Shown here: piece by piece, positions 39,874 through 58,657 of the stretch | Layout of the letters: each line of letters begins with the position of its first letter | Position numbering within the stretch: the first letter of the stretch is position 1 | Assembly (NCBI GenBank): GCA_013360215.1 | Contig: JABWCP010000010.1 | Span: forward strand, 34,731 to 98,730 | Reading direction: 5' to 3' | Source: a bacterium | GTDB lineage: Bacteria > CLD3 > SB21 | DNA length: 64,000 bases | The notes under the pieces: generated by a model | The model's database searches: none | What the model was told of the DNA's origin: nothing | What the model saw: the letters and a program-made list of their open reading frames with translations, nothing else | Position numbers and translations under genes: made by a program

Positions 39874-39878
39874 GTTCT

Positions 39879-41393: not shown

Positions 41394-41411
41394 ATTAATT
41401 TTAATTATAAC

Positions 41412-41568: not shown

Positions 41569-41590
41569 GTTCGTTGTTTTTTGTAAACCA

Positions 41591-42145: not shown

Positions 42146-42189
42146 TGCCTAAATTTTTTTGGATATGTATCGTTGTCTTTTACGAAGCC

Positions 42190-42284
42190 CGCTAACGTTC
42201 CCGCGCTTTGCGTTCGGGCGGGTTTCGGAACACAAAGCTCCAAGTTTGCACGTAAATCCGCCTGACTCAAAACCCGTATTACCT
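42190..42284 (-). other. attC-like site C (short)
   Basis: Cores are CGCTAAC (42190-42196) and ATTACCT (42278-42284, degenerate). The arm CGCTTTGCGTTCGGGCGGG (about 42204-42222) pairs with TCCGCCTGACTCAAAACCC (about 42257-42275). At 95 bp the loop is shorter than in the others. Its left arm is nearly identical to that of site B, showing common ancestry. Confidence 0.65.
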
Positions 42285-42293
42285 GCCGTTTTT

Positions 42294-42890
42294 TTATGTT
42301 TTAGCAAAATCAATCAAAGGCTTAATATCACCAGAATCTGCTTGCCTTATCGCAGTCAAATAAACTGATCTCGCTTCTCCCTTTTTATTTAGATTTGTGC
42401 TATTCCAAGTAAATATCGGTTTTCCAAATAATTGACTAATAATGATATCTGCTATTAATCTTGAATGCCTACCATTACCGTTTGGAAAACAATGTATTTT
42501 AACAATTCTATGTTTGAATCTTATTGCAAATTCCTCATCAGTATATGTTTTATTCTTTAACCAATAGAGACTATCATCCAATAATTGTTTTAAAGAAAAT
42601 CCTATTTGATGCTTATCGACTCCAATATTTTTGTTTGTCTTTCTAAAATTACCTGCCCAAGACCAGACTTCGTTAAACATTCTTTTATGAAGTTCCTTTA
42701 CAAAAATTTCGGATAGGATATACTCAGGTTTCCATTTTTTTCCAATAGTCCACTGTACAGATTTTTCTATATTTAATTGTTCGAATTCGTCTAATTCACC
42801 ACGCGTTGTGATTGATTTTATTAACAGCCCCTCTTTCTCATCTTCATCTAAAGGTGTTTGCCCTTCAATATATTCTATTTCTAATCCCAT
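42294..42890 (-). CDS. Mobile mystery protein B (Fic domain)
   Basis: A 198-residue Fic/DOC protein. The active loop reads HCFPNGNGRHSR (about 150-161), with the catalytic histidine and the GNGR anion hole intact and Asn at the position usually Asp/Glu. The start IEYIEGQTPLDEDEKEGL and MFNEVWSWAGNFRKTNKNIGV match the family named mobile mystery protein B, which nearly always accompanies mobile mystery protein A, here overlapping upstream by 10 bp. Fic enzymes usually transfer AMP to targets; this pair is thought to be a mobile toxin/antitoxin-like or regulator module but its biology is not established. Confidence 0.9.
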   Translation of the reverse strand: MGLEIEYIEGQTPLDEDEKEGLLIKSITTRGELDEFEQLNIEKSVQWTIGKKWKPEYILSEIFVKELHKRMFNEVWSWAGNFRKTNKNIGVDKHQIGFSLKQLLDDSLYWLKNKTYTDEEFAIRFKHRIVKIHCFPNGNGRHSRLIADIIISQLFGKPIFTWNSTNLNKKGEARSVYLTAIRQADSGDIKPLIDFAKT

Positions 42891-43345
42891 AAATACTTTG
42901 GCATTTTAGTTTTGATTTCTTCAGCTCTATTTTTTATTGCTTTTTCTATACGAATTTTCGAATTCTCCTGATCCTCAAGTTGCATTGTGTATGAAGTTCT
43001 CATTACAATATCCTTTGCAATGTCTAAAGCTCTTTTTTCAATCATTTCTTCAATACTTTGTCCTTTTGGTATAAACCCATAAACAAGTTTCATATCAAGT
43101 ACCGCTCCAACTTCCCTAAGGCCTTTTATTGTAATTGAACCATTGGCCTCACGTTCCTCAATCTCTTTTACACTTTGAGGAGATATTTTTAAACGATTAC
43201 CCAATTGTCTCAACGACATTTTTAAAGCAATGCGTATTGTATGTATCCATCCTTTGGGGGGTATTGAAAATGAACTCAAAGGTCTGAACAATGCCAATTT
43301 TCTATCAGCTTGTTCAATAATTAGTCGTTGTTTTGAAATATCCAT
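42881..43345 (-). CDS. Mobile mystery protein A (HTH regulator)
   Basis: The 154-residue protein has an Xre-type helix-turn-helix (about 35-85): IRIALKMSLRQLGNRLKISP followed by SVKEIEEREANGSITIKGL. This matches mobile mystery protein A, the partner of the Fic protein encoded immediately downstream. It probably regulates the pair and may neutralise the Fic protein. Starting ATG at 43345; first gene of the two-gene cassette between sites C and D. Confidence 0.9.
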   Translation of the reverse strand: MDISKQRLIIEQADRKLALFRPLSSFSIPPKGWIHTIRIALKMSLRQLGNRLKISPQSVKEIEEREANGSITIKGLREVGAVLDMKLVYGFIPKGQSIEEMIEKRALDIAKDIVMRTSYTMQLEDQENSKIRIEKAIKNRAEEIKTKMPKYLWD

Positions 43346-43449
43346 CAGGTTATATCCTAAAATTATTTACTAAAATTAAGGTTATAATATGAAATATCAA
43401 GATGTTTTTTAAGGTTAAAACCTGACGAAATGTTGTTTTAAAAATGGGG

Positions 43450-43581
43450 AGATAACGTTTTGGGGCTACAAGAAGTTGGCGCTTTCGGAGCACAAAACTG
43501 TCTGCCAGCACCAATGTTTATTAATTGCTCAAATGTTTGTATTCGCACTGCCCGCCCACTAATGCAAAACCCGTGTTGAGC
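43450..43581 (-). other. attC-like site D
   Basis: Cores are AGATAAC (43450-43456) and GTTGAGC (43575-43581, a good GTTRRRY). The right arm GCACTGCCCGCC...GCAAAACCCG follows the same pattern as sites B, C and F; the left arm pairs less well (CGTTTTGGGGCT...GTTGGCGC). Length is 132 bp. The right part overlaps the truncated czcD reading frame. Confidence 0.62.
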
Positions 43582-43649
43582 CAAAATGCTACAGTTATAT
43601 TACCAGTTGAATTGTTGTTATTATGGTCGTGTGAATGATTATGTCCCAT
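43521..43649 (-). pseudogene. Truncated N-terminus of a CDF cation transporter (czcD remnant)
   Basis: Starting one base after the DUF3703 stop, the minus strand encodes MGHNHSHDHNNNNSTG followed by NITVAFWLN, the typical His-rich start and first membrane strand of CzcD-like cation diffusion facilitators. The frame then runs into attC-like site D (cores at 43575-43581) and stops at 43521 after 42 codons, without the remaining about 250 residues. No continuation exists to the left, where the mobile-mystery pair begins. The metal operon therefore lost its last gene at the cassette boundary. Confidence 0.8.
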
Positions 43650-43650
43650 T

Positions 43651-44019
43651 TTATTTTCTTGTTGCTTTAATTATTATTTTAAGGTCTTCGGGTATTTCCA
43701 TGGGCTGTAGTGGTGGAACATTTGCACCTCCAGTATTCCCTAGTGGGATGTTACCGACAAAGGATTTTACTCCACCGACTAATAAGCGGGGAATTTGTCC
43801 GATTACTTCTTTTGGATTTTTAGTTTTGATGCCGAAAATCAACATTTTCCAGTGAACATAGGAATGTGCAAAAGGATAGGGCTGTCCAAGTATGTGTGCT
43901 CTTTCTAAGTGTTGCCAACTTTGTTGCAAATATCCTTTAGAAAAGGCATTTACAGCTTCGCTTATTTCCTTTTGAAAGTATGGTTTTAGTGCTGTCGGCA
44001 TTGATGTGTTAAATTTCAT
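43651..44019 (-). CDS. DUF3703 family protein
   Basis: A 122-residue soluble protein (LKPYFQKEISEAVNAFSKG, SWQHLERAHILGQPYPFAH, HWKMLIFGIK) matching DUF3703, a family found almost only in heavy-metal efflux operons next to CDF and RND transporters. It lies 11 bp after the efflux adaptor gene and ends 1 bp before the czcD remnant. Biochemical role unknown. Confidence 0.85.
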   Translation of the reverse strand: MKFNTSMPTALKPYFQKEISEAVNAFSKGYLQQSWQHLERAHILGQPYPFAHSYVHWKMLIFGIKTKNPKEVIGQIPRLLVGGVKSFVGNIPLGNTGGANVPPLQPMEIPEDLKIIIKATRK

Positions 44020-44030
44020 AGCTTAAATTT

Positions 44031-45302
44031 TTAATGTTCGTGTGCCTCTCCTTTGTTGTTCATTTTAGCCAATATAAAAAATGCTCCGTTAACTACTACT
44101 TTGCTATTAGCGGGAATTTCCTTTAGCAAAGTAATCTCGCTGTAACCTATATCGGTTGTGCCTTTGCGAATAGGAATTTTTTCAAAGGTTGTTCCTTCTT
44201 CGGCGGGTTCGGGTTCCTCCTTTTCGCTGTGTTCGTGTCCGTGTTCATCGTGTTTATGCTCAGCAGTTGTGGTTTCGCTATGGTGTTCTACTTCCTTGTG
44301 AGCATCGGTAACGATAAAAATATAGTCCTGCCCTTCGTGGTTTACAATGGCGTTGGTAGGCACTGCATCAACGGTTGCATTTTCTAAACTTACTAGTGCG
44401 GTAATACTCATCCCGTCAATCAGTCCTTGTTTGTTGCCTTTTACCATTGCGTGAACGGCAATGGCTTTGGTGTTTGCTTCAAATGTGTTGCTAATAGCGT
44501 AAACATCGGCATCGTATTCTTTACCCGGATTGTTGGTAAGGGTAAAATGTATGGTTTGTCCAATTTTTAGTTTTTGTAAATCTTTTTCATACACATACAA
44601 ATCCAAATGCAGTTGGTTGTTGTCCACAATTTCGGCTATGGGATTATCGGCATCTACATAGCTGCCAATGTTAACCATTACATTGCTGATTGCCCCGCTG
44701 ATTGGGCTTGTGATACTAACGGCAGACTGAATATTATCTGAAGTAAGCGTTTCGGTATTAATGCCGATTAGCTCTAATTGCTTTTTCAGACTTGCTCGTC
44801 TTGCTTTTAATGTTTTAAGTTCTGCTTCGGCTGATTGCAGATTTTTTAGTGCTGTTGCGTTGCCTTGTTGCAATTCCTTTTGTCGGTTAAATTCTAATTG
44901 TGCCAATTCTGCTTTTGAAGAAATGCTTAAAAATTCTTCCTGTAAAGTGATGAATGAATTATTGGTGATGGTGGCAATTATCTGTCCTTTGCTAACAGTG
45001 TTGCCCGTTTGCACTAAGATAGATGTGATTACTCCGCCCAATGATGCCGTTGCATTGGCTTTATTCTGATTTGGCACTTTCAAAATTCCATTGGCTTTGA
45101 GGGAAGCTGTGAGTTGTTTTTTTTCAACACTACCGAACTCAATTTTTATTGATTTCATTTGTTCGGCTGTGAGCATTGACGTGTTGGAGTTTTCGTGTTC
45201 ATCGTGATGCTCGTTTTCCTCTCCGTGCGTTTCTTTTTTGCTGTTGCAGGATGCAAATACTATTGATGTTGCAATGGTTGCTATGAGGATTATATTTTTC
45301 AT
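44031..45302 (-). CDS. RND efflux periplasmic adaptor (CusB/CzcB-like) lipoprotein
   Basis: A lipoprotein signal (MKNIILIATIATSIVFASC, Cys19) and a His-rich stretch (about 25-41) precede the adaptor: barrel-sandwich hybrid halves (GGVITSILVQTGNTVSKGQ and SPISGAISNVMVNIGSYVD) around a coiled-coil hairpin (about 130-185), then the beta-barrel. A second His/Glu-rich insert lies near 340-375. His-rich segments are typical for metal-efflux adaptors. It follows the transporter gene by 11 bp. Length is 423 residues. Confidence 0.92.
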   Translation of the reverse strand: MKNIILIATIATSIVFASCNSKKETHGEENEHHDEHENSNTSMLTAEQMKSIKIEFGSVEKKQLTASLKANGILKVPNQNKANATASLGGVITSILVQTGNTVSKGQIIATITNNSFITLQEEFLSISSKAELAQLEFNRQKELQQGNATALKNLQSAEAELKTLKARRASLKKQLELIGINTETLTSDNIQSAVSITSPISGAISNVMVNIGSYVDADNPIAEIVDNNQLHLDLYVYEKDLQKLKIGQTIHFTLTNNPGKEYDADVYAISNTFEANTKAIAVHAMVKGNKQGLIDGMSITALVSLENATVDAVPTNAIVNHEGQDYIFIVTDAHKEVEHHSETTTAEHKHDEHGHEHSEKEEPEPAEEGTTFEKIPIRKGTTDIGYSEITLLKEIPANSKVVVNGAFFILAKMNNKGEAHEH

Positions 45303-45313
45303 GTTTTGAAATT

Positions 45314-48300
45314 TTATTTGTTGATTAAGAAATTGATGTTGATGATGGATTGATTGATTTGGTTAACCGATTGCAGATAACTCAACTGCACATCAGTAGC
45401 GGTTTGCAAGGCTTGTAAGTATTCAATGTAACCAATGTCGCCACTTTTGAAACCAAGCGTTGCGGTGCTGATTATTATGTCAGCATTGGGCAAAGCGGTG
45501 GTTTTGTAATAATTGTATTGCGACAAATTCTGGTTGTATTGCTGAAAAGCATTTTGCAACTGGTTTTGTAAAATCAGTTTTCCGTTATCGGCTACTTTTT
45601 GCAATGCTTGTTGTTTGTAGTCAAGCGATTTTATTTTTGCAGCGTTGCTGAAAAAAGTAAGCGGAATGCTGATACCTATGTTGAAGCCTTGAAAACGTTT
45701 GCTGCGGTCAAAGAATACATCAGAGCCGTTAATAGTTTGCACCCCAATAAGCGACTGATTGAAGTAACCTACACTATAGTCGGGAAGTGTAGAGGCGGTT
45801 TCTAACTTTTTGTTTTGTTCTGCAATTATTGCTTGCTGATACAACACCTTTAGCGATGGGTTATTTGCTATTAGCGTTGTGTCAAACGAACTGCTTAAAA
45901 CAAGCGGTTGCAAATTTTCACTTACCGAAATTGTAAAATCTTCGCTTGTATTCATTAACGATTTAAGCGAATTGTAAGCCGTTGTAAATTCCGTTTCGTT
46001 TTGTTTAAGTAACTGAGAAAGTTGTCCCCGTTTGGTTTCGGCTGTGGTTTTTTCCAACAAATTGGTTTCGCCTGTTTTGTAACGCAAGGCGGCAGCATTC
46101 ACAAAATCGTTATACAAACTGTCAAGAGATTGCAGTTGCTTTTTTGTGGTTTGTAAATATTGCAACTGATAAAACCAGTATTGCACCTGTGCTTTTATTT
46201 CGTTGGCGGTGGCTTGCTGCTGCAACTCACTACTTTGCAATTCGGCTTTATACAAACCTGATTTAGCGGTGTAATAAGTAGGAAAGGGAATACTTTGTGA
46301 AACCTGAAATGCCTTATCCTGATTGATGCTGTTAAATTGCCCAAACTGAAAATTGACATCCGTTTTTGGTAATTCAAACACCGATTTTTTCAAGGTTGCA
46401 GAAGATTGCACATTGAGTTGTTGCGATTGCATTTCTAAATTGTTTTTCAATGCTGAACTTATGGCATCTTCAACCGAAATGGTTTTGGCTGTTGGCGTTT
46501 GAGCATTTGCAGCATTGAATGAAAGCAACGCAAAAACTACAATAGCCGTTGCAGATATTTTGCGTATTGGCTTTTTGATTTTTGAAAACATCAAATACAA
46601 CAACGGCAAAACAATTAGGGTTAAAAAGGTTGCTGTTATCAATCCGCCAATTACAACAGTTGCCAAAGGTTTTTGCACCTCTGCACCTGCACCATGCGAA
46701 AGTGCCATTGGTAGAAACCCCAACGATGCAACAGTGGCAGTCATCAGCACAGGTCGCAAACGGATTTTCGTTCCTTCTTTTATGCGTTGGATAATGTCGG
46801 TCATTCCGTCTTTCTCCAATTGGTTAAAAGTTCCAATCAGTACAATGCCGTTTAAAACCGCTACGCCAAACAAGGCAATAAAACCAATACCTGCCGAAAT
46901 GCTGAAAGGCATATCACGAATGAGCAAGGCGAATACTCCGCCTATTGCACTCATTGGAATTGCGGTGTAAATAAGTGTTGCTTGTTTTACTGAACCAAAT
47001 GTGAAATAAAGCAACATAAAAATGAGTGCTAAAGCTACTGGTAATGCAATCATTAGGCGTTTGCTCGCTGCTTGCAGATTTTCAAATGTTCCACCATAAG
47101 TGTAATAATAGCCTTCAGGCAATTTTACTTTTTCGTTCAATTCCTTTTGAATATCAGTAACTACACTTGCTACATCTCTACCTGAAATATTGAAACCTAC
47201 AACAATTCTGCGTTTACCATCTTCACGGCTTATTTGTGCAGGACCCAATTCCATTTTTATTTCTGCTACTTGTGATAATGGTATTTGAGTTCCGTTTGTA
47301 GTTGGAATATACAAATGACTTACATCGTCAATGTTGTTTCGGTGTGTGCTGTCCAAGCGAACAACCAAATCAAATTTGCGTTCGTTTTCATAAACTACAC
47401 CTGCCCCACCACCTGCAAAAGCGGTGCTTACAATGTGGTTTATATCCTCAATGTTCAAACCATAGTTGGCAATTTGCGAACGGTTGTATTTGATGACGAT
47501 TTGCGGAAGCCCTGCAACCCGTTCAACGCTTGGTTCGGTTGCACCGTCCACACTTTGCACAACTGAATTTACCTTGTTTGCATAAGCCAAAAGTGTGTCC
47601 ATATTTTCACCGAAAATTTTAACGGCAACATCTTGACGAATACCTGTCATGAGTTCGTTGAACCTCATTTGGATGGGTTGGTTTTTTTCAAAGAAAACCC
47701 CAGGAATTGTGCTTAGTTTTCTTTCTATTTCTTCTGCCAGTTCATCATACGTAACATCCCGTTTCCATTCGGAAGGCTGTTTAAGTATTATCATCATGTC
47801 TGTTGCTTCGGGGGGCATTGGGTCGGTGGGAACTTCGGCTGCACCTGTTTTTCCAACTACCATTTTTACCTCGTCAAATTCTTTGATTATGCGGGATGCC
47901 TGCATGGATGTTTCCAAACTTTGTGAAAGTGATGTGCCTTGCGGTAATATGCAATGGAAAGCAAAATCGCCTTCCTGTAATGTAGGTATAAATTCACCTC
48001 CCAATTTTGAAAACAGGAAAACAGAAACCACAAAAACGGCAACCGTTATGCCAACAATTACTTTTTTGAAACGAATGGCTTTATCTAATAGTGGTGCATA
48101 GATGCGTTGAAATAAATTCATCATTCTATCGCTAAAAGTTTGCTTGTGTGAAATGGTTTTTGGTAAAAACGCTGCACACATCATTGGAATATAGGTAAGC
48201 GATAAAATCAATGCCCCGAAAATGGCGAAACCAACAGTTTGAGCCATTGGGCGAAACATTTTTCCTTCAATACCTATAAGGGTAAGAATTGGTATATAAA

Positions 48301-49675
48301 CTATCAGGATAATGATTTCGCCAAACGCAGCACTGTTGCGGATTTTTGAGGCGGATTGAAAAACTTCCTCGTCCATTTCATTCTGTGTTAGCTTTCCAAT
48401 TGATTTTCGCAAACCCAAATGGTGCAAGGTGGCTTCTACTATAATTACCGCACTGTCCACAATCAAACCAAAGTCAATTGCACCTAAACTCATAAGGTTT
48501 GCACTTACGCCAAATACATTCATTAAGCCCAATGCAAAAAGCATTGATAATGGAATTGCAGAGGCTACAATAAGTCCTGCCCGGAGGTTCCCAAGAAATA
48601 TGACCAAAACGAAGATTACTATTAATGCACCTTCAATTAAATTTTTTTCTACTGTGCTGATGGCTCGGTTTACTAAGTCTGTTCTGTCTAAGTATGGTTC
48701 TATTACTACATCTTTGGGTAATGATTTTTGAATGGTTTGCATTTTATCTTTAATTCTGCCAACCACATCGGCACTATTCGCCCCTTTTAGCATCATTACC
48801 ACTCCACCTACTGCATCTACTTCACCGTTGTAAGTCATAGCACCATAACGAACGGCACTGCCTAAGCAAACTTCGGCAACATCTTTTATCAAGATAGGAA
48901 TGCCGTTAGGATTGGTTTTTACAACAATATTTTTGATGTCGTCAAACGAACCAATCAAGCCAACGCCACGAATGAAATAAGCGTTTGGTTTTTTGTCAAT
49001 GTAGGCACCACCCGTGTTTTCGTTGTTCTTTTCCAATGCGGTAAAAATTTCGGGAATGGTAATTCCCATTGCAATTAAACGGTCAGGATTTACGGCAACT
49101 TCGTATTGTTTGAGTTGCCCGCCAAAGCTGTTTACTTCTGCAATTCCTGGTGTGCCATAAAGTTGTCGGGCAACAATCCAATCTTGCATTGTCCGCAAGT
49201 CCATTGCTGTGTATTTACTTTCACTGCCTTTTTTCGGGTGAATAATGTATTGATACACTTCGCCCAAACCTGTGCTAACGGGTGCTAATTCAGGTGTTCC
49301 AACACCTTTTGGGATTTTGCTTTCGGCTTCTTTAAGTCGTTCGTTTATGAGTTGTCGTGCAAAGTAGATGTCCACTTTGTCGTGAAAGACAACGGTAATT
49401 ACCGAAAGTCCGAAACGGGAAATGCTTCGCAATTCCTCTAAGTCGGGAAGGTTGGCAATGCTTTGTTCTATAGGATAAGTTACCAACTGTTCCACCTCTT
49501 GTCCTGCAAGGGTAGGGCAAACGGTGATGATTTGCACCTGATTGTTGGTAATGTCGGGAACTGCGTCAATAGGCAGTTTTGTAGCACTCCACACTCCCCA
49601 AACAATGAGTGCAAGCGTCATCAATGCAATGATGAATTTATTTTTTATGCTGAAAGCAATTATTTTGTCTAACAT
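45314..49675 (-). CDS. CzcA/CusA heavy-metal RND pump fused to a TolC-like outer membrane domain
   Basis: The first about 1030 residues are a heavy-metal RND pump with two sets of membrane segments and periplasmic loops; TM4 carries GAIDFGLIVDSAVIIVE (Asp401, Asp407), which resembles the Zn/Co/Cd-type (HME1-like) motif more than that of Cu/Ag pumps. After a linker comes an internal hydrophobic signal-like stretch (about 1036-1056, TAIVVFALLSFNAANAQ), then a TolC/CusC-like outer membrane channel (about 1060-1453) with long coiled helices. Such fusions occur in Bacteroidota. The single ORF thus supplies both inner pump and exit duct; cleavage after the internal signal is possible. Metal specificity is uncertain. 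Confidence 0.92.
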   Translation of the reverse strand: MLDKIIAFSIKNKFIIALMTLALIVWGVWSATKLPIDAVPDITNNQVQIITVCPTLAGQEVEQLVTYPIEQSIANLPDLEELRSISRFGLSVITVVFHDKVDIYFARQLINERLKEAESKIPKGVGTPELAPVSTGLGEVYQYIIHPKKGSESKYTAMDLRTMQDWIVARQLYGTPGIAEVNSFGGQLKQYEVAVNPDRLIAMGITIPEIFTALEKNNENTGGAYIDKKPNAYFIRGVGLIGSFDDIKNIVVKTNPNGIPILIKDVAEVCLGSAVRYGAMTYNGEVDAVGGVVMMLKGANSADVVGRIKDKMQTIQKSLPKDVVIEPYLDRTDLVNRAISTVEKNLIEGALIVIFVLVIFLGNLRAGLIVASAIPLSMLFALGLMNVFGVSANLMSLGAIDFGLIVDSAVIIVEATLHHLGLRKSIGKLTQNEMDEEVFQSASKIRNSAAFGEIIILIVYIPILTLIGIEGKMFRPMAQTVGFAIFGALILSLTYIPMMCAAFLPKTISHKQTFSDRMMNLFQRIYAPLLDKAIRFKKVIVGITVAVFVVSVFLFSKLGGEFIPTLQEGDFAFHCILPQGTSLSQSLETSMQASRIIKEFDEVKMVVGKTGAAEVPTDPMPPEATDMMIILKQPSEWKRDVTYDELAEEIERKLSTIPGVFFEKNQPIQMRFNELMTGIRQDVAVKIFGENMDTLLAYANKVNSVVQSVDGATEPSVERVAGLPQIVIKYNRSQIANYGLNIEDINHIVSTAFAGGGAGVVYENERKFDLVVRLDSTHRNNIDDVSHLYIPTTNGTQIPLSQVAEIKMELGPAQISREDGKRRIVVGFNISGRDVASVVTDIQKELNEKVKLPEGYYYTYGGTFENLQAASKRLMIALPVALALIFMLLYFTFGSVKQATLIYTAIPMSAIGGVFALLIRDMPFSISAGIGFIALFGVAVLNGIVLIGTFNQLEKDGMTDIIQRIKEGTKIRLRPVLMTATVASLGFLPMALSHGAGAEVQKPLATVVIGGLITATFLTLIVLPLLYLMFSKIKKPIRKISATAIVVFALLSFNAANAQTPTAKTISVEDAISSALKNNLEMQSQQLNVQSSATLKKSVFELPKTDVNFQFGQFNSINQDKAFQVSQSIPFPTYYTAKSGLYKAELQSSELQQQATANEIKAQVQYWFYQLQYLQTTKKQLQSLDSLYNDFVNAAALRYKTGETNLLEKTTAETKRGQLSQLLKQNETEFTTAYNSLKSLMNTSEDFTISVSENLQPLVLSSSFDTTLIANNPSLKVLYQQAIIAEQNKKLETASTLPDYSVGYFNQSLIGVQTINGSDVFFDRSKRFQGFNIGISIPLTFFSNAAKIKSLDYKQQALQKVADNGKLILQNQLQNAFQQYNQNLSQYNYYKTTALPNADIIISTATLGFKSGDIGYIEYLQALQTATDVQLSYLQSVNQINQSIININFLINK

Positions 49676-49708
49676 TATTTTTTAATCAATTTAATGAATG
49701 AATACACG

Positions 49709-49770
49709 ATTACTTGCGGTGCGTTAGCACCGTAAGTAGTTTTGTTTTGTTCCGCTGAAGGCGGAACCTC
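49709..49770 (-). other. Two stable hairpins before the RND pump gene
   Basis: TTACTTGCGGTGC/GCACCGTAAGTAG with a 4-base loop (49712-49740, one mismatch) and GTTCCGC/GCGGAAC with a 5-base loop (49751-49769) lie between the DUF6660-like gene and the efflux pump. There is no T-run, so a role in mRNA stability or attenuation is more likely than termination. Confidence 0.45.
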
Positions 49771-49779
49771 ATAAATTCA

Positions 49780-50103
49780 TTAACTGATTTTAGGCGGCTG
49801 CCAAATAGATAAATACACCTCTGAAACAAAAGAGGCGTTGTAAACAAGAAAGTCTTGAGATGCAAAAGGTGTCAGGTTGTATAATGCAGTCGGGTAGAAA
49901 ATGTTGGTCATAGATTGTCCGCAACAAGCACACATACAAGAAGGTGAGCAATTCTCGGTGTCGCTGTCGTGGTCTGAGTGGTCGGTTGTGGCGAAAGTAG
50001 ATTGTTCTGAACCATGATATTTACAGTCGTCCTTGTCGCTGCAAGGCATAACCGCCAAAGCCAACAAGTAAAAACTGAATATGAGTGTCAAAATTTTTTT
50101 CAC
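49780..50103 (-). CDS. Small DUF6660-like metal-operon protein
   Basis: About 107 residues: signal peptide (VKKILTLIFSFYLLALAVMP), a short Cys/His/Asp-rich segment (CSDKDDCKYHG, HSDHDSDTENCSP), a CMCACCGQ cluster and the C-terminal YLSIWQPPKIS. The start is GTG at 50103; the longer frame upstream has no support. The family (I believe DUF6660) accompanies Bacteroidota RND metal pumps. The same final motif ends the Cys-rich protein at 54877-55248, so the two are related. Likely a periplasmic metal-binding or sensor accessory protein. Confidence 0.75.
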   Translation of the reverse strand: MKKILTLIFSFYLLALAVMPCSDKDDCKYHGSEQSTFATTDHSDHDSDTENCSPSCMCACCGQSMTNIFYPTALYNLTPFASQDFLVYNASFVSEVYLSIWQPPKIS

Positions 50104-50161
50104 GGAGCAAATGTAAGGAAGTCCGCCGAATGTTACAATACCGAAATGCGCGGTATAACTT

Positions 50162-50679
50162 TTAGGTGCTGTTATAACCAGTACGGCGTACATTGCTTAC
50201 GTTTTCCTTATGTGTCTGCATAACCATTTTAAACTGAGTTGTCAATACTGGTAATAACGAAATGATTAAACTAATGACGAAAATACTGTCGTAGCGAATG
50301 TCATTGTATCTCAAGACCCTTGTCCCGTCGTCACAGGCAGTGCATTCAAGTAGTTTAATTGAACTGTCAAAATAGAAATACAACATTACTGTTACTGGAA
50401 AAATTAATATAGCTAATACACAATTAATTAATCTTTGTCTTGGTGTCTGCTTAAAGATGAAATAGGAAAACAGAGTCGTGTAGAGTCCGAAAGAGATAAC
50501 AAACAAGTCACTTGCGAAATGGAAGTATTTACGAGGATGCTAAATGAAATTTTATAATTTGTCAGCGAACAATATAAATGCCTGATTGTTTTTTGATAAG
50601 TGTCCTCGAAGTAAAACGAAAGTCCAGCCGTCACGACAAATATTAAGAAGAGAATAATTATGGTTTTCAACTTTGTCAT
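50162..50679 (-). pseudogene. Frameshifted small membrane protein gene
   Basis: Two overlapping minus-strand frames look like the halves of one gene. Codons from 50679 give MTKLKTIIILFLIFVVTAGL to ...SLTNYKISFS. A shift of frame near 50530 continues as HPRKYFHFASDLFVISFGLYT and on to 50162 (...RRTGYNST). Joined, they make a roughly 170-residue protein with four hydrophobic segments and DTxxxxxxxLxC-type motifs between them. It may be decayed, or two small genes; a sequencing error is also possible. No function assigned. Confidence 0.5.
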
Positions 50680-50708
50680 TTAATTGTCCGGGTCTGTCTG
50701 CCGTATTG

Positions 50709-50842
50709 GTTATAACGGTTCTCGGCTTTGCGTAGTGGCGGACTTAGAAGTACTTCACTGTCAGCCTACCACAAATGCTGATTAGATGCACAAAGTTACA
50801 ATTTTGCACTGAGCCCGCCATTACGCAAAACCGATGTTGTGC
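50709..50842 (-). other. attC-like site F (best paired)
   Basis: Cores are GTTATAAC (50709-50716) and GTTGTGC (50836-50842). The arm GGCTTTGCGTAGTGGCGGAC (about 50724-50743) pairs almost throughout with GCCCGCCATTACGCAAAACC (about 50813-50832). Length is 134 bp. It lies after the multicopper oxidase gene, separated by about 130 bp of AT-poor spacer that holds a TTGCCAAGT/ACTTGGCAA inverted repeat. Confidence 0.75.
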
Positions 50843-50975
50843 CTTCGTTGTTCTTTTTCGTCTGTTATGTTGTCGGTCAATACTGTCAGCATTGGGAAAG
50901 CTATACTCTTTGCCAAGTTTTGGTTTGCGTGTCGGCTCGTGCGACTTGGCAATGTGTATGGCTTGTGGGTTGGAT

Positions 50976-53207
50976 TTAATAATTAAGTGTCAGTCCTATT
51001 CCAAAACCCATATCACTGTCGTAATGTGTTCTGAACCCTAAGTTTTTACTTGCGATATAATTTAGTCCAAACATATATTCTTTGTCTGTATTTACCATAA
51101 ATGAGGCTCTAAACCTTTTTGAAAGCGGAATGTCTTCACGTCTTAATTGTACTCTTACATTTCCATCGTGATAGACTTCTGTTTGTAAAATTACAAGCAT
51201 TGGTAAAGTATAAGCCACCCCTAAACTAAATTGTGTCCGATTGTCTTTGGTGTTTGTCTGCCCAAAAATATTTTTTTCAAATTCCCCATCTTGTTTTCTG
51301 TATCGCCAATCAAAACCAACAAATGGCATTAGCCATTGGTTTCTGCCAATGTATCGTCCTATGTGGGTTTCAGTTTCATAACCGTGTCTGTCGTGATAAC
51401 CTAATCGCCATTCTGTGCCAAAACTCCAACGGGTATTTTGTAACATAGTCATTCCGTCATTACCATTGGTTGCAAAGTCGTTTTGGAACATAAAATGTAG
51501 TTCATTGCTTTCCCGTTGTAATTTTTTGTAAGCCCATTTTTTATCAGGCAGCAAGGGATTGGGTTCTTGGTTTTCTGTGCTAAAAACTCGGTTCATTCCT
51601 GCCATCATATGGTAGAGAATATGACAATGAAAAAACCAATCGCCATCTAAATTGGCTTCAAATTCTATAACATTGGTTTCCATTGGCATTATGTCCAACA
51701 CATTTTTAAGTGGTGCATAATCACCTTGTCCGTTTATAACCCTAAAATCGTGTCCGTGCAAGTGCATTGGGTGTCGCATCATTGAATTGTTGTAGAGTGT
51801 TATTCTTACAATTTCACCTTTTTTGATTAGAATTTTATCAGTTTCTGCAAGCACTCGGTTGTCCATACTCCACACATAGCGGTTCATATTGCCTGTTAAT
51901 TCAAACCTTAATTCTCTGATAGGTGCATCTTTTGGTAAAGTGGTTTTGGTGGGTGATTTCAGCATTGCGTAGTTTAATGTAACAATGTCATTGCTTGGCA
52001 TTGTATGATTGCTATGGTCTGAATGTTGAGATGATTTTGGTTTATTTTCTCCTGTAATTTCATGGTACATTACCGTATTCATATCCATTTGTTGAAGCGA
52101 CATATCCATTCCCATATCGTTCATTTTGCCGTTCATTTTCATCATATCATTCATCATCTTCATTCCTTCAAAATATTTCAGTTTGGGCAATGGACTTACT
52201 AACTGTTTGATACCTGAACCAATATAAATTGATGCCGATTTGGTGCGGTCTTCGGGTGTTGCCAAAAATTCGTAAGAAGTATTTTCTGCGGGAATGGTAA
52301 CAATTACGTCATACGTTTCTGAAACCCCGATTATCAGTCTATCTACCACAACAGGCTCAACATCATTGCCATCATTGGAAACTACTGTAATTTTTCCACC
52401 TGCGTAGGTGAGCCAAAAATAAGATGATGCACCACCGTTTGAAATTCGCAATCTTACTTTATCGCCTGCTTTGAATTGAGAAAGTTGACTTTCAGATGTT
52501 CCGTTAATCAAAAATTTATCATAGTACACATCACTCACATCCATTGCCAACATTCGTTTCCATTCGTTGGTTAATTTGGTTTTGAAATGCCCTGCTTTTA
52601 TGGCTTCTCCATAACTCTGAACGGTGTTTTTCTTGATGGCAAACCAATCATTGGCATTGTGTAACATTCTGTGAACATTGTCAGGATTATAGTCTGTCCA
52701 TTCGCTTAAAATAATTGGAACAGTCGGCAAATCGTCAATCCCTTTTCTGAAAGTAGGGTCGTCTGTTCTTTTAAGAAGAACCATTGAGCCGTACATTCCA
52801 ATTTGTTCTTGTAGTCCGCTATGACTGTGATACCAATGTGTGCCGTTTTGAATTATCGGGAAACGATAAATGTGCGTGGTATTAGGTTCTATCGGCATTT
52901 GGGTCAGGTACGGAACGCCATCTTCTTTATTAGGCAAATACAAACCGTGCCAATGCAAAGATGTACTTTCTTTAAGCCTATTGTGTACGTGTATTTCTGC
53001 TGTGTCGCCTTCTGTAAACGTAAGTGTAGGCATTGGAATTTGTCCGTTTACGGCAATGGCTCGTTTTTCTTTACCTGTAAAATTTACGATAGTGTCTTTT
53101 ACAAAAAGGTCATATCGGACTACTTTTTGGGCGATAGTGTTTGTGGTTGCCAATAGTAAAACAACTATCGGCAACAGTTTTTTATAAATATTTTTTTGAT
53201 TATCCAT
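50976..53207 (-). CDS. Multicopper oxidase (CopA-like) fused to a CopB-like outer membrane domain
   Basis: A signal peptide (about 1-27) precedes three cupredoxin domains with all copper motifs: HWHG (85-88), HWYHSH (124-129), HPMHLHGHDF (near 480) and HCHILYHMMAGM (near 525). A Met-rich segment (MMNDMMKMNGKMNDMGMDM) lies between domains, as in CopA/PcoA oxidases that detoxify Cu(I). After about residue 570 the protein continues with about 170 residues of alternating, aromatic-rich strands ending FGIGLTLNY, resembling the beta-barrel of CopB/PcoB. In most bacteria these are separate proteins. First of a two-gene unit with the methyltransferase. Confidence 0.9.
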   Translation of the reverse strand: MDNQKNIYKKLLPIVVLLLATTNTIAQKVVRYDLFVKDTIVNFTGKEKRAIAVNGQIPMPTLTFTEGDTAEIHVHNRLKESTSLHWHGLYLPNKEDGVPYLTQMPIEPNTTHIYRFPIIQNGTHWYHSHSGLQEQIGMYGSMVLLKRTDDPTFRKGIDDLPTVPIILSEWTDYNPDNVHRMLHNANDWFAIKKNTVQSYGEAIKAGHFKTKLTNEWKRMLAMDVSDVYYDKFLINGTSESQLSQFKAGDKVRLRISNGGASSYFWLTYAGGKITVVSNDGNDVEPVVVDRLIIGVSETYDVIVTIPAENTSYEFLATPEDRTKSASIYIGSGIKQLVSPLPKLKYFEGMKMMNDMMKMNGKMNDMGMDMSLQQMDMNTVMYHEITGENKPKSSQHSDHSNHTMPSNDIVTLNYAMLKSPTKTTLPKDAPIRELRFELTGNMNRYVWSMDNRVLAETDKILIKKGEIVRITLYNNSMMRHPMHLHGHDFRVINGQGDYAPLKNVLDIMPMETNVIEFEANLDGDWFFHCHILYHMMAGMNRVFSTENQEPNPLLPDKKWAYKKLQRESNELHFMFQNDFATNGNDGMTMLQNTRWSFGTEWRLGYHDRHGYETETHIGRYIGRNQWLMPFVGFDWRYRKQDGEFEKNIFGQTNTKDNRTQFSLGVAYTLPMLVILQTEVYHDGNVRVQLRREDIPLSKRFRASFMVNTDKEYMFGLNYIASKNLGFRTHYDSDMGFGIGLTLNY

Positions 53208-53867
53208 TTAAGAAATTTCATTTTTTGTTGCATTGAAATAGGAAAATGTGCCAATTGCTGTATTGATAGATTTTGTTACCAAAACATTGTCAAAACCTGC
53301 TTTTGTAATAAAATCGGGCATCAATCCTTTTACATTATCATTCGTGGTTTTGAAACCATCTAACAATTGAACCAATCTAAAAGTAAATCGCATTAACTTG
53401 TTCTGTGCTTTTCCCCAATCGGCAATAATGAGTTTACCGTTAGGTTTCAAAACCCGATGCAACTCTTTAAGACAATTCAATTTTGTTTCAGCATCTAATT
53501 GATGAAAAACCAAACAATTGTAAACTTTATCAAAAGTGTTATCGGTAAAAGGTAAAATACCACCATCGTATAAATGCAATGGAATTGAAGTATTATTTTT
53601 TGCCAATTTATGTTCGGCAATCGCCTTTACTTTGGGGTCTATATCCAATCCTTCTAATTTTGTTTTTGGATTTTTCTTATGTGCCAAAATCAAATTTTGT
53701 CCTGTACCAAAGCCAAATTCTAAAATCTTTTCGTTCGCTTGTGGATTGATTTCTTCAACCAAAAGTCTTCTGAATTTTTTTTCGGGCATAGTAATTTTAA
53801 TTGCCAAATCATAATAGGCAGTTAAAAAATCGTAACCCAATGCTGGAATATATTTTTTATTTTCCAT
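53208..53867 (-). CDS. Class I SAM-dependent methyltransferase (UbiE/MenG-like)
   Basis: The 219-residue protein has the SAM loop KILEFGFGTGQNLIL (about 43-57), GLDIDPKVKAIAE, DKVYNCLVFHQL and LHRVLKPNGKLIIADWGKAQ, a small-molecule methyltransferase of the UbiE group. Its stop abuts the multicopper oxidase start. Such enzymes are often found beside copper oxidase genes in Bacteroidota; the substrate is unknown. Confidence 0.85.
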   Translation of the reverse strand: MENKKYIPALGYDFLTAYYDLAIKITMPEKKFRRLLVEEINPQANEKILEFGFGTGQNLILAHKKNPKTKLEGLDIDPKVKAIAEHKLAKNNTSIPLHLYDGGILPFTDNTFDKVYNCLVFHQLDAETKLNCLKELHRVLKPNGKLIIADWGKAQNKLMRFTFRLVQLLDGFKTTNDNVKGLMPDFITKAGFDNVLVTKSINTAIGTFSYFNATKNEIS

Positions 53868-53882
53868 TTGTTTTTTCGTTTA

Positions 53883-53917
53883 AAAAATGGTGTAGCCAAA
53901 TAGGCTACACCATTTTT
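53883..53917 (-). terminator. Intrinsic terminator after the HMA/DUF3347 gene
   Basis: ATGGTGTAGCC and GGCTACACCAT form an 11-bp stem with a 5-base loop, flanked by A/T-runs. On the minus strand it follows the stop of the gene at 53920 and precedes the methyltransferase start, so it separates two transcription units or attenuates read-through. Confidence 0.85.
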
Positions 53918-53919
53918 GG

Positions 53920-54783
53920 TTATTCAATTGTTTCTACCGTTTTACCACAAGTAAGCATTTTAGAACCGTAATAAGGGTTTTTAACTGCATTTTCCTTGCT
54001 CAACCAATTAGCACCTTTGCCATTGTTTGCCATTGGGCAATGTTGGTAATAAGTAGGCGTTTCTTGTTTAGAAACTTTCAAGAGTTGATACATATTATCT
54101 GACAAAGTATTGAAATGGTCTCTTTGATGTCCCGTATCTTTGGTTTCTTCGATGTGTTCGGTATCAAATTTCAAGTCTTTCATTACTTTCATCCAAACAG
54201 TATGCTCTTCATTTGAAAGTTTATTCATCTGTACCGCATTAAGAGCATTGAGCAATTCTTTTGCTTTGGAAGAAGCTAGATTTCCGTCAGACTTTACCAA
54301 AGCATCTTTTAGAGCGAAGTAATTTTCAAAAACTGATGATAGTTGATTTACTTCTTGTTTTGTTTCAGTTGGCTTGTCTGTTGCTCCACCGTGATTGTGA
54401 TTAGTATGGTCGTTAATCGTTTCTGATTTCACAATTTCCGTTTTTTTTGCACGGTCGTATTGGCAACAATTAGGAAGTTTGGCATACGCATCATCAGGTG
54501 CAAGAAATTGGTCGCTATCGTAACCTGCCAATGCAATCCGTTTTAAGATTTCGTCTTGACTGGTTTTACTTGGGTCGTATGTAAGCGTAGCCATTTTGGT
54601 ATCTTTGTTCCAATCTACTTGGGCTACTTTCTTAACATTTCCTGTTTTTTCAATGGTGCTTTCGCACATTCCGCAGTTACCATATATTTTTACGCTTTCG
54701 GTTTTGGCGTTTTTTATTTGAGCGTTACACGCTGTGAACGATAGCAATAGGGTAATTGCCATCAATATTTTTATTGATTTCAT
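53920..54783 (-). CDS. Secreted HMA-domain protein with DUF3347
   Basis: After a signal/lipoprotein-like N-terminus (MKSIKILMAITLLLSFTAC) comes a heavy-metal-associated domain with GNCGMCESTIEK (metal-binding CGMC) and AGYDSDQF, then CC in LPNCCQYD and a DUF3347 domain (from about 145) with the typical C-terminal YQHCPMANNGKGANWLS and NPYYGSKMLTCG motif also found at the CusB metal-binding region. It is predicted to bind copper or a similar ion in the periplasm and hand it to the efflux system. Length is 287 residues. Confidence 0.88.
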   Translation of the reverse strand: MKSIKILMAITLLLSFTACNAQIKNAKTESVKIYGNCGMCESTIEKTGNVKKVAQVDWNKDTKMATLTYDPSKTSQDEILKRIALAGYDSDQFLAPDDAYAKLPNCCQYDRAKKTEIVKSETINDHTNHNHGGATDKPTETKQEVNQLSSVFENYFALKDALVKSDGNLASSKAKELLNALNAVQMNKLSNEEHTVWMKVMKDLKFDTEHIEETKDTGHQRDHFNTLSDNMYQLLKVSKQETPTYYQHCPMANNGKGANWLSKENAVKNPYYGSKMLTCGKTVETIE

Positions 54784-54876
54784 CTTTTTTTAAATTAAAT
54801 GTTTAACGAATAATTGAATTTGAAAGCAAGAAAAATGCTTTCAATTAGACAGACCTATGGCTGTCAAGGCAAAAAA

Positions 54877-55248
54877 TTAGCCTATTTTGGGCGGTTGCCA
54901 AATAGAAAGGAAACCTGATGAATAATAGGTATCTTGATAATAAAAGTTAAGCTTACTAACGATTATTGTAATTCCTGAAAATCCGTCAAAAAAAGGAATT
55001 GTAAAGTTTGTGCAATTAGTAGGACAATGACAAGCTGGATTACCGCATTTCCCATCACAATCTTTACCGTGTTTACCACATTGTCTTTTTTCTGTGTTGC
55101 AACAATCTTTTTTTTCTGTCTTCGTATTAGATTGTTTGGTGCTAGTATTTTCTATGTTTTCAGAATTTGACCCACAAGCATAAGAGTCTGTTGGTGTCAA
55201 AAAGAAACCAATCAGGGTTAATAATGCTATGTAAAAAAATCTAGTCAT
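54877..55248 (-). CDS. Cys-rich secreted protein sharing the WQPPKI C-terminus
   Basis: A signal peptide (about 1-24, ending SYAC) is followed by a Cys-rich cluster (DCCNTEKRQCGKHGKDCDGK and CGNPACHCP) and ends SSGFLSIWQPPKIG, nearly identical to the end of the DUF6660-like protein at 49780-50103. Both genes are preceded by TACATTTGC, which contains the Bacteroidota -7 element TAnnTTTG. Probable metal-binding accessory protein; 123 residues. Confidence 0.78.
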   Translation of the reverse strand: MTRFFYIALLTLIGFFLTPTDSYACGSNSENIENTSTKQSNTKTEKKDCCNTEKRQCGKHGKDCDGKCGNPACHCPTNCTNFTIPFFDGFSGITIIVSKLNFYYQDTYYSSGFLSIWQPPKIG

Positions 55249-55388
55249 ATTCTTTATAACTGCAAATGTACAAATTTTATTCTGTCAAGCGTTGGTAAAA
55301 AACAGCTCTTTTGGTTTTTCAGCGTTGGCTTTATGTGTCGGCAAAAAACCAAATGTGCTGTTTGTGCGGTCGGCTTTTCTACAATGAG

Positions 55389-55521
55389 GCACAACGGTTT
55401 GGGTATTGCCGAAGGCGGGGACTTTTAGCACTGAACTTCAATAGAATTACTAAAGTTCAAATAAAGCAAAAAAGTTCAATAGAAGAACTTTAGCCCCGCT
55501 TTTGGCAATACCTTGTTAGCC
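55389..55521 (-). other. attC-like site G (different arm sequence)
   Basis: Cores are GCACAAC (55389-55395) and GTTAGCC (55515-55521). Arms: GGGTATTGCCGAAGGCGGGG (about 55400-55419) pairs with CCCCGCTTTTGGCAATACC (about 55494-55512). Its arm sequence is unrelated to that of sites B-F but the pairing and length (133 bp) are the same. The right core overlaps the stop codon of the next gene. Confidence 0.75.
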
Positions 55522-56205
55522 ATAGTTTTTTATTAACCCGTTTAGGTTGTTTTCTTTTAATAATTTGTCAATATACTTTCCTCTACTACTTGTTTTTCTT
55601 TGGTATGGAGCAAATAAAGAAGTTACTTGATTAAATTCTTCGTTAAGTTTTAGAAGTTCATCTCTGTTAGTTTCGTTTAAAGTACTATTTCCATACTTTT
55701 GATTAAATTCAATAAGTTTTTTAATGACGATTTCCTTTTCTACAATTTCTTTTTCAGAAGCATTTAAAGTGCATATTCCGTAAATTCCATTACAATAATG
55801 TTTCCATTCTGTTTCAAAAACTTCATTTAGTAACCTATCTATTTCTTCCGTTTTATTTATGAATAGATTGTCATACGCAAATTTATTTTCGTTGTGATTC
55901 TTTAAATTTTGAACGAAATTTTGTTTAAATGTTTCTTTTATTTCTTCTGGTTTTTTCTTGAAATTCTTGTAGTCGTTTAACTTTTCAATATGACTTTTTG
56001 AAAAATATTTTTCGTATTTAGTATTTACTAATTTGTCGGATAAAGGCGAAGTTATTATTTCTTGTTTCTCAATAGAATAGGAGTAATTAGGAATAATCTC
56101 CTTTTCTATTAGCTCTAAAATTTCGGTTTCAGAGAATCCTGTTTTTTCAGACAATTCTTTTAATTCAATAAAATTTTCTTTTATGTATTGCGTATCTGTT
56201 TTCAT
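55516..56205 (-). CDS. Hypothetical protein, DUF6058-like
   Basis: A 229-residue soluble protein rich in Lys, Glu and Asn. It begins with an HTH/MerR-like stretch (LKELSEKTGFSETEILELIE) and has a central motif HYCNGIYGICTLNAS that I associate with DUF6058. Its stop codon lies within the attC-like site G and it forms a single-gene cassette with site H upstream. Function unknown. Confidence 0.6.
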   Translation of the reverse strand: MKTDTQYIKENFIELKELSEKTGFSETEILELIEKEIIPNYSYSIEKQEIITSPLSDKLVNTKYEKYFSKSHIEKLNDYKNFKKKPEEIKETFKQNFVQNLKNHNENKFAYDNLFINKTEEIDRLLNEVFETEWKHYCNGIYGICTLNASEKEIVEKEIVIKKLIEFNQKYGNSTLNETNRDELLKLNEEFNQVTSLFAPYQRKTSSRGKYIDKLLKENNLNGLIKNYG

Positions 56206-56220
56206 TTTTGTTAAAATTAT

Positions 56221-56350
56221 GGCTAACGGTCGAGTGTATGTGCCGTAAGGGATTGCGGAGTAGTTCCCTGTCCACCGACACGAAAGTTTGAGCGGGCTAC
56301 AATGCTTAAATACCCACTGAAACCCTTATGGCATATACACTTTGTTGTGC
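56221..56350 (-). other. attC-like site H (different arm sequence)
   Basis: Cores are GGCTAAC (56221-56227) and GTTGTGC (56344-56350). The arm AGTGTATGTGCCGTAAGGG (about 56233-56251) pairs with CCCTTATGGCATATACACT (about 56323-56341) with only about two mismatches. Length is 130 bp. Arms differ in sequence from all other sites. Confidence 0.75.
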
Positions 56351-56634
56351 GTTCGGCTTTTATTTATTTCATTTTCTTATTGTAAATTTAAGCAAAGTTA
56401 CTAATTTTGCATTCAATTATTTAGGTTTTTTTCATTATGTATTACAGCAGACCTTGGACGACTATCTAAGTGATAGACAGTCCCAAATAAATTTTCCATA
56501 ATCTTTTTGGCAAGACAAACAGCCTATGTTTTGGTGTGTCGTCATTTTTAATGAAGGCATTTCTTTGTCATAGTTGCTCTGTCAGGTAATACTGTCTTTC
56601 ACATCGCTACGATTTGAATTCAAGTATTCACCCT
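56351..56634. other. AT-rich leader of the erm/IS30 cassette
   Basis: About 284 bp between attC-like site H and the IS30 left end hold the promoter above and no open frame of note. It probably was the upstream region of erm before the IS inserted. Confidence 0.45.
56379..56409 (+). promoter_or_regulatory. Bacteroidota-type promoter reading toward IS30 and erm
   Basis: ATTG (56379-56382) and TAATTTTG (56402-56409) are 19 bp apart, matching the -33 TTTG / -7 TAnnTTTG promoter of Bacteroidota sigma factors. It points to the right, toward the erm gene, with the IS30 insertion now between them. Probably the original promoter of the cassette gene. Confidence 0.45.
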
Positions 56635-57778
56635 TGAGTTCAACTTGTAAATGCAACTTTTAATTTATGATTGTTGCATAGGAATAGATACAATATTTTT
56701 TCAGAGAGGAAAGAGAGAGTTACTCTCCTTCGCTCTGCTGAATGGATAAATATTACTATCTTCGCCTGTGTCCGTCCAAAGATTTAGTTGTAGATATGAA
56801 ACATTTAACCGTAGAACAAAGATATACCATTTTTGCGATGTTGCAAATAGGTTATACACAAATAGAGATAGCAAAGACTATCGAAGTAGATAAAAGTACT
56901 GTAAGCCGAGAGTTAAGGCGTAATTGTGATATGCGTAGTGGTAAGTATATTATGGATTTAGCACAGCGCAAAGCAGATAAACGCAAGGCAGATAAGAGAC
57001 GTAAAGAGCTATTTACCTTACAGATGCAGCGTAGGGTTAAGAAGCTCTTAAAAAGAGGTTTTAGCCCTGAACAGATTGCAGGTAGGAGCAAGAATGAGGA
57101 TAAGCCAATGGTCTCTCACGAAACTATTTATCGCTGGATATGGGAGGAGAAGCGAAAAGGTGGCACGTTACACAAGTATCTAAGGCGGCAGGGACGTAAG
57201 TATGCTAAACGTGGCTCAAAGAACGCAGGACGTGGATTTATCCCTAACAGAGTAGATATTGATGAGCGTCCAAATGTGGTTGATAACAAAGAGAGATTTG
57301 GAGATTTAGAGATAGATACAATAATAGGTAAGAATCACAAGGGTGCAATTCTTACCATTAATGATAGACTAACAGGTAGGGTTTGGATACGAAAACTACA
57401 AGGGAAAGAAGCCATCCCAGTAGCTAAAGTAACCGCTTGGGCTCTACGAAAAGTAAAGAACTTAATTTATACTATTACGGCTGATAATGGAAAAGAATTT
57501 GCAAAACACGAGGAAATAGCACAAAAGTTAGAACTAGATTTCTACTTTTGTAAGCCATATCATTCTTGGGAGAGAGGTGCTAATGAGAATACTAACGGAC
57601 TAATTAGGCAATACATTCCAAAGGGTACGGACTTTAGTGAGATAACCAATAAGCAGATTAAAAGGATAGAAAATATCCTCAATAATCGACCTCGTAAAAG
57701 ACTTGGATACCTCACACCAAATGAAAAATTTAAACAAATTATTAACCAGAATTCAGTTGCATTTGCAAGTTGAATTCA
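56635..57778 (+). mobile_element. IS30-family insertion sequence
   Basis: Left end TGAGTTCAACTTGTAAATGC (56635-56654) and the complement of the right end (TGAATTCAACTTGCAAATGC, about 57755-57778) are inverted repeats with few mismatches. They enclose one transposase gene whose stop lies in the right repeat. CACC flanks both sides and may be the target duplication. The element is about 1.14 kb, normal for IS30. Confidence 0.85.
56796..57773 (+). CDS. IS30-family transposase
   Basis: The product starts MKHLTVEQRYTIFAMLQIGY with the helix-turn-helix of IS30 (AKTIEVDKSTVSRELRRN), followed by SHETIYRWIWEEK and an intact DDE catalytic core: DLEIDTIIGKNHKGA, TADNGKEFAKHE and YHSWERGANENTNGLIRQY. 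The ATG at 56796 is preferred over the upstream one at 56742, which adds 18 unlikely residues. About 325 residues, apparently intact. Confidence 0.92.
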   Translation: MKHLTVEQRYTIFAMLQIGYTQIEIAKTIEVDKSTVSRELRRNCDMRSGKYIMDLAQRKADKRKADKRRKELFTLQMQRRVKKLLKRGFSPEQIAGRSKNEDKPMVSHETIYRWIWEEKRKGGTLHKYLRRQGRKYAKRGSKNAGRGFIPNRVDIDERPNVVDNKERFGDLEIDTIIGKNHKGAILTINDRLTGRVWIRKLQGKEAIPVAKVTAWALRKVKNLIYTITADNGKEFAKHEEIAQKLELDFYFCKPYHSWERGANENTNGLIRQYIPKGTDFSEITNKQIKRIENILNNRPRKRLGYLTPNEKFKQIINQNSVAFAS

Positions 57779-57797
57779 GCACCTGTAAGAAGTCATA

Positions 57798-58598: not shown

Positions 58599-58657
58599 TC
58601 ACTTCTTTTATATTAAGGTGGTATTTCCATTATCGGGGTCTTGTCTTTTAAGCTGAC

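Follow-up and report, generated by a model that had tools for sequence, protein, structure and literature searches.

Whole operons as probable single cassettes of an integron-like array headed by a Xer-like recombinase

We describe a tandem array of candidate gene cassettes in a bacterium of the lineage CLD3; SB21, and especially a copper-resistance operon within it. The array lies in a 64,000-nucleotide stretch (positions 34,731 to 98,730 of contig JABWCP010000010.1, assembly GCA_013360215.1), which we analyzed as a whole and will call the window; coordinates count from its first letter. Between two recombination sites that resemble the attC sites of integrons, G (55393–55529, 130.8 bits) and F (50714–50850, 121 bits), there are four genes on the minus strand. 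These encode a small Cys-rich protein (54877–55248), an HMA-DUF3347 metal-binding protein (53920–54783; PF11827, 5e-28), a SAM (S-adenosylmethionine) methyltransferase (53208–53867; PF13649), and a CopA-like multicopper oxidase (50976–53207; PF07732/PF07731; TIGR01480, 382 bits). A Bacteroidota-type -7 motif, TACATTTG, lies 22 nt upstream of the gene for the Cys-rich protein. A first-pass annotation of this DNA had proposed that segment F–G and the neighboring segment D–F bear metal-resistance operons between such sites, and the open reading frames (ORFs) and their protein families confirm this gene content.

Read on the minus strand, F–G starts after the core GTT at 55393 and ends at R' of site F, at 50714 (50714–55392, 4.7 kb including its own site). 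Its two ends, GTT-GTGCCTCA and GAAGGCAC-AAC, give a 6/8 match between the start and the segment's own R''; most other cassettes in the window match their own R'' at 5–7 of 8 positions. Homology to other genomes breaks at these same points. In L013, L014, L015, and L016, homology is lost at 55395–55397, and each has unrelated DNA before GTTGTGCCTCATT; in L011, the GTTGTGCCTCATT core at which the operon starts is also the end of another site. At the other end, homology to L012 is lost at base 50714, which is R' of site F. Within F–G, our covariance model of the sites (see below) found nothing above noise, even with its filters off. The first-pass annotation had suspected a decayed core near 53.9 kb, but what lies there is an intrinsic-terminator hairpin (8.9 bits, E = 0.44). 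We predict that F–G is one intact operon cassette of 4.7 kb. It has four genes, while published cassettes have one ORF as a rule and sometimes two or none (PMC8618304).

Sites of the same type bound this operon in other genomes too, a pattern that the first-pass annotation had proposed to look for. In L014, from a metagenome-assembled genome (MAG) of the Ignavibacteriales, two sites enclose these four genes, with their order unchanged. There is also a three-gene version of 3.9 kb (L083 and L085), a six-gene version (L015 and L011; the contig of L011 ends 3' of the oxidase), and a 7.2-kb version with an added copper ATPase (L062 and L072). In 12 of 13 operon cassettes, the promoter motif TAnnTTTG is present 13–25 nt upstream. 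Because the operon cassettes have their own promoter, they need not adjoin the head of an array.

Some of these units are nearly identical in unrelated surroundings. L062 is 99.0% identical to L072 over 7240 bp and 99.9% identical to L063 over 7121 bp. In all three loci, the shared part starts at the core GTT, the upstream sites differ, and the downstream DNA differs as well; in L062 and L072, the shared part ends at R' of the unit's own site. Similarly, L024 is 99.1% identical to L026 over 4002 bp and 99.4% identical to L025 over 4006 bp, and L083 is 94.8% identical to L085 over 3895 bp. In L025, the shared unit holds the first cassette position behind an integrase that is truncated at its N terminus and is 76% identical to the recombinase of the window. 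These comparisons bear out the suggestion of the first-pass annotation that the system moves operons: F–G is predicted to be one cassette that holds an operon, and in other genomes this operon is again a single unit that breaks off at the cores.

Large cassettes are also found in a far longer array. On the complete chromosome of SSA2 (a MAG record, CP058707), the site profile finds 348 sites over 507 kb, all on one strand (3.475–3.982 Mb, L137–L163; about 350 cassettes), and a relative of the window's recombinase is located beyond the array's head. The median spacing is 0.83 kb, with 34 of 347 intervals at 3 kb or more. Among the intervals of 5–12 kb in which both cores are readable, the ends match in 15 of 17, versus 6.2% for random pairing of ends (binomial, 1e-16). 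The 5–12 kb intervals contain 2 to 12 ORFs (of at least 90 amino acids), nearly all co-oriented; ordinary cassettes have one or at most two. Because their ends match, most of the long intervals are true single cassettes.

We identified sites with a covariance model, R1, that was built from 34 sites (F, G, and H of the window and 31 from other loci); sites A, B, C, and D of the window were not in the training set. In the window, R1 recovers seven full attC-like sites (H, G, F, D, C, B, and A). All seven lie on the minus strand, as do the recombinase gene and almost every cassette gene, and they form a tandem array in one orientation that adjoins the recombinase. The sites are conserved as an imperfect stem, not as a sequence. 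Across the 34 sites, 15 of the 16 stem pairs have two-sided compensatory changes, so the fold is not due to chance. Sites are typically about 125 nt long, and others are about 90 or 160–190 nt. A search of the whole host genome with R1 gave one further site, on contig C43. R1 sites are present in 109 of 198 Bacteroidota genomes and in 1 of 150 Pseudomonadota genomes, and that one was the search center, preselected as a site-bearing MAG. Other methods were less useful. Rfam has no family for these sites (there was one chance match), and a simple search of the window for inverted repeats could not tell them from background. An arm-based scan of the window placed F, H, and G at the top (20, 16, and 15, versus a background maximum of 13) and missed the degenerate sites B, C, and D. 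In the loop between the arms (alignment A3), many sites have repeated GTGCTTCTAT / GTGCTAAATT-like blocks that are about 25–30 nt apart; we have no explanation for this periodicity.

At the head of the window's array, on the same strand as the cassettes, is a tyrosine recombinase of 379 amino acids (58755–59894, minus strand). It passes the cut-off of NF040815, a family of Xer/XerA-like recombinases (228 bits; cut-off 220), and is below the cut-off of TIGR02249, the model for the integron integrase IntI (204.7 bits in a split match; cut-off 265). The IntI-specific domain is missing: there are 17 residues between the aligned blocks, versus 59 in IntI4 (2A3V). The same block is absent from seven recombinases of this family from array-bearing genomes and from one other in the host genome. 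The best match in the PDB is an archaeal XerC-like enzyme (4a8e). Members of the family head the arrays of genomes G039, G006, G028, and G033. In G032 the recombinase points away from its array; in the other cases examined it is co-oriented. Next to the window's recombinase gene is a putative attI-like region, recognized from its sequence (58655–58754, minus strand). Its first junction, GTT|GTGCGTCA at 58662, is 93 nt from the gene and is the start of the first cassette. In L025, the equivalent stretch sits between the end of the integrase and the first cassette.

Two further observations concern the recombinase. About 100 residues (1–105) precede its SAM-like domain; this extension is common to several of the array recombinases, and Pfam names no domain in it. 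Also, another member of its family (43% identical) is encoded at an end of the host's contig C41 (L007, 1–1218), and no R1-type site was found on that contig at the threshold used.

Given these comparisons, we think it very likely that the window contains a short integron-like array in which whole operons are single cassettes that can be excised and captured by a recombinase. At its head is a Xer/XerA-type tyrosine recombinase, without the IntI-specific domain, beside an attI-like junction. Each cassette starts after the G of the GTT core and ends with an attC-like site of its own, about 125 nt long and folding into a stem. The recombinase would most likely excise a cassette as a circle between cores; alternatively, a circle would be captured at the attI-like junction. 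The unit that moves may be an entire operon. The sequences themselves show the sites, the cassette boundaries, the matching ends, the units conserved in unrelated flanks, and the one-strand arrays with this recombinase family at their head; from these we infer that the local recombinase is the enzyme, that there is a circular intermediate, and that the sites fold as single strands. The system appears to be integron-like in how it works, and by its sequence it is not an IntI integron, because it lacks the IntI-specific domain and because its cores do not follow the consensus RYYYAAC/GTTRRRY. Only AAC, GTT, and the purine that follows are kept; in SSA2, GTTRRRY is found at 8.3% of sites and RYYYAAC at 7.8%, versus 6.25% expected by chance after GTT.

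Segment D–F is more complicated than F–G. It contains genes for DUF3703, CzcB, a CzcA-TolC fusion, and DUF6660, as well as a small membrane gene in two out-of-frame pieces. The first-pass annotation treated D, F, and G as the bounds of two segments. All three are full sites by R1 (D is at 43454–43589, minus strand, 62.8 bits), but D–F is not a single unit. Near 50.15 kb, where a decayed core had been suspected, we found a collapsed site, E (50157–50173, minus strand; 5.1 bits, E = 3.8, filters off). It keeps only the R'' half GGTTATAAC, 11 bases, and GTTATACC; the stem is gone. With all filters off, R1 found no further site above noise from D to G. We predict that D–F is two cassettes: one of 0.55 kb with the frameshifted small membrane gene (50157–50713, minus strand; ends match at 7/8), and a czc operon with a collapsed upstream site (43454–50156, minus strand, with site D after it). 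The ends of the czc part (E to D, 6.6 kb) match at only 2 of 8 positions, and the start of czcD (MGHNHSHDHNNNSTGNITVAF) runs directly into site D. The 3' part of the czc operon has therefore been lost.

Intact czc cassettes do exist between sites, in L131 (9.1 kb) and L130 (9.7 kb). In both, DUF6660, CzcA, and CzcB are followed by a methyltransferase of the PEMT family and then by a P-type ATPase. (The family assignments of the last two are from L131; the ATPase of L130 is identified from sequence similarity only.) Both cassettes start with GTTAT(A/G)CCCAATGCC and end with GGGCATAAC, while their upstream sites differ. Identity between them is about 80% over the whole unit, from GTT through its own attC. 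In L130, the CzcA frame is interrupted and the sequence has unresolved bases. A DNA search with the window's czc segment in the host's own phylum (nine genomes in the set) gave only weak pieces. We also considered that the czc operon was inserted into a single attC, of which E and D would be the halves. However, the start at F matches R'' of D at just 3/8 positions, and there are intact czc cassettes that have a start and an end of their own, so we dropped this idea. ARAGORN reports a tRNA-Ala(CGC) at 46656–46734, within the CzcA-TolC gene and on the same strand, which is almost surely a false positive.

Might the large intervals be several ordinary cassettes that became fused after the internal sites decayed? 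The collapsed half-site E and the unmatched ends of the czc part fit this explanation, as do the 2 of 17 long SSA2 intervals with unmatched ends. However, matching ends are unexpected after fusion, and both F–G and the other 15 SSA2 intervals have them. Furthermore, units of 7.2 kb and 4.0 kb are found complete in unrelated surroundings, with 99% identity between copies, and the interior of F–G is empty of any remnant above noise. Fusion is a very unlikely explanation overall and, as matters stand, it is refuted for F–G. The first-pass annotation had offered decay of internal sites as the alternative to operon movement; this holds for E and not for F–G, and decay of the kind seen in D–F is the exception among long intervals.

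We think it very unlikely that the operons arrived by some other route (a transposon, an integrative and conjugative element, or homologous recombination) and that the sites are incidental repeats. The copper operon is widespread in Flavobacteriaceae without sites, it is also found on plasmids, and there is an IS30 element in a neighboring cassette of the window. But this seems inconsistent with the loss of homology at the core GTT and at R' of the unit's own attC in independent genomes, and the units are not bounded by terminal inverted repeats or by another element's transposase. It is highly improbable that a canonical IntI elsewhere in the cell works the sites and that the neighboring recombinase is unrelated to them. 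This would account for the recombinase's score below the IntI cut-off and for its lack of the IntI insert, but TIGR02249 is above its cut-off in none of the seven array-bearing genomes (0/7; it is unmatched at about 181–236). Finally, although the sites form palindromes behind the 3' ends of genes and are widespread in the phylum, it is scarcely credible that they are non-recombining palindromes (terminators, or elements like repetitive extragenic palindromes or miniature inverted-repeat transposable elements), as the outer core of a site matches the start of its own cassette and not its neighbor's, the arrays are strictly one-stranded (348/348 in SSA2), and several are headed by a tyrosine recombinase.

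Some observations do weigh against our proposal that operons move as single cassettes of this array. The evidence for movement is comparative throughout, and several of the compared loci come from MAG contigs, for which misbinning is possible (for instance, L083 is labelled Chloroflexi). The 6/8 core match of F–G is typical of the family and not unique to the segment (the most common core is GTTGTGC/GCACAAC), and the window's czc segment is damaged at both ends. The enzyme is linked to the sites by its position, and we found no close relative of the recombinase in several genomes (G011, G013, and G043). The additional domain of IntI is held to be necessary for its action on attC (PMC9668308), and the window's recombinase lacks it. 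Also, 38 loci, mostly from Flavobacteriaceae, have the copper operon without a site nearby, and this holds for most copies in that family; a site is within 250 bp of the oxidase's stop codon in about 15 of 80 multicopper-oxidase loci. The first-pass annotation had named operons in fixed positions without sites as the case that would refute it. Such loci exist, but they do not disprove the cassette form: the cassettes are one vehicle of the copper operon and not its sole home.

Like the chromosomal (sedentary) integrons and superintegrons of Vibrio and Xanthomonas, the window's system has a tandem one-strand array with a tyrosine recombinase at its head, a folded site at the end of each cassette that is conserved in structure more than in sequence, a recombination point at GTT, and cassettes that are mostly about 0.8 kb. 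Unlike in those integrons, the recombinase lacks the IntI-specific domain and has an N-terminal extension, the cores are off RYYYAAC/GTTRRRY, the sites are about 125 nt, and the cassettes reach 12 kb and 12 ORFs. Integrons have from 1 to 200+ cassettes (PMC8618304), which the array of about 350 in SSA2 exceeds, and complete integrons were reported to be rare in Bacteroidetes (PMC9024848). Class 1 mobile integrons are similar in that plasmid arrays have one resistance gene per site (in Riemerella, Bacteroides, and Empedobacter), but R1 is blind to class 1 attC sites (the best match, at the aadA7 site, is 5.3 bits, E = 2.8). And while the recombinase is above the cut-off for Xer/XerA-like enzymes, it heads a cassette array instead of acting at dif. 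We found no published description of a system of this type in the open-licence literature (preprints and subscription journals were outside this scope). A related finding was published in 2026: in Riemerella anatipestifer, aph(3')-IVb has a 140-bp attC-like stem-loop downstream of it and inserts without flanking homology (PMC13148043). This is an independent source for an attC-like stem-loop behind a resistance gene, in the same phylum. Unlike our analysis, the portion of that report considered here concerns one gene in one species, with no site family, recombinase, or multi-gene cassettes.

More broadly, it seems probable that Bacteroidota and neighboring phyla have their own type of integron, with a Xer-like recombinase, a separate family of attC sites, arrays that can reach about 350 cassettes, and whole operons of 4–12 kb that move routinely. 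Single genes are the cargo usually ascribed to integrons. Should this system be active, then metal-resistance operons, and probably other functions too, move ready-made with their own promoters and across phyla, and its reach includes more than half of the Bacteroidota genomes that we sampled. It would also raise the question of how folded sites are processed by a recombinase that lacks the IntI domain. A separate type of this kind would escape searches that rely on that domain, and its cargo on plasmids includes tet(X), lnu(I), blaOXA, and further resistance genes. IntegronFinder demands this domain (PMC9668308), and tools with this requirement would be expected to miss systems like the window's.

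The rest of the window's array is as follows, with all cassettes on the minus strand. Cassette DNA has a G+C content of 25–40%, versus 48% in the host flanks. Cassette 1 (56225–58661; ends match at 6/8) ends with its own site, H (56225–56358, 84.1 bits). It contains an Erm(F)-like gene on the plus strand (57798–58598) and an IS30-family insertion element (about 56639–57774, with terminal repeats TTCAACTTGTAAATGCAACT / AGTTGCATTTGCAAGTTGAA) that sits immediately upstream of this gene and may drive it. Cassette 2 (55393–56224; ends match at 7/8) has a DUF6058 gene and ends with site G. Cassette 3 is the copper-resistance operon, and cassettes 4 and 5 are the two units of D–F. Cassette 6 encodes a Fic/DOC protein and a partner (42194–43453; 5/8; site C at 42194–42292, 44.3 bits), cassette 7 a GNAT acetyltransferase (41416–42193; 5/8; site B at 41416–41576, 33.1 bits), and cassette 8 an EpsG-like membrane protein (39757–41415; 6/8), followed by the last site, A (39757–39881, 38 bits).

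Sites of this family are also found on plasmids. A plasmid of Riemerella anatipestifer (NZ_CP073240; L090) has seven of them at 2957–9709, mostly with one gene per site: lnu(I), a RelE/HTH pair, blaOXA, tet(X), estT, a phosphotransferase, and an APH(3') gene. This is a resistance-cassette array of the non-IntI type. tet(X) also lies between two such sites on plasmids from Empedobacter (L092, 2919–4445) and Bacteroides fragilis (L091, 3486–5116). In the B. fragilis plasmid, erm(F) is present beyond the second site, in the opposite orientation (compare the Erm(F)-like gene of the window).

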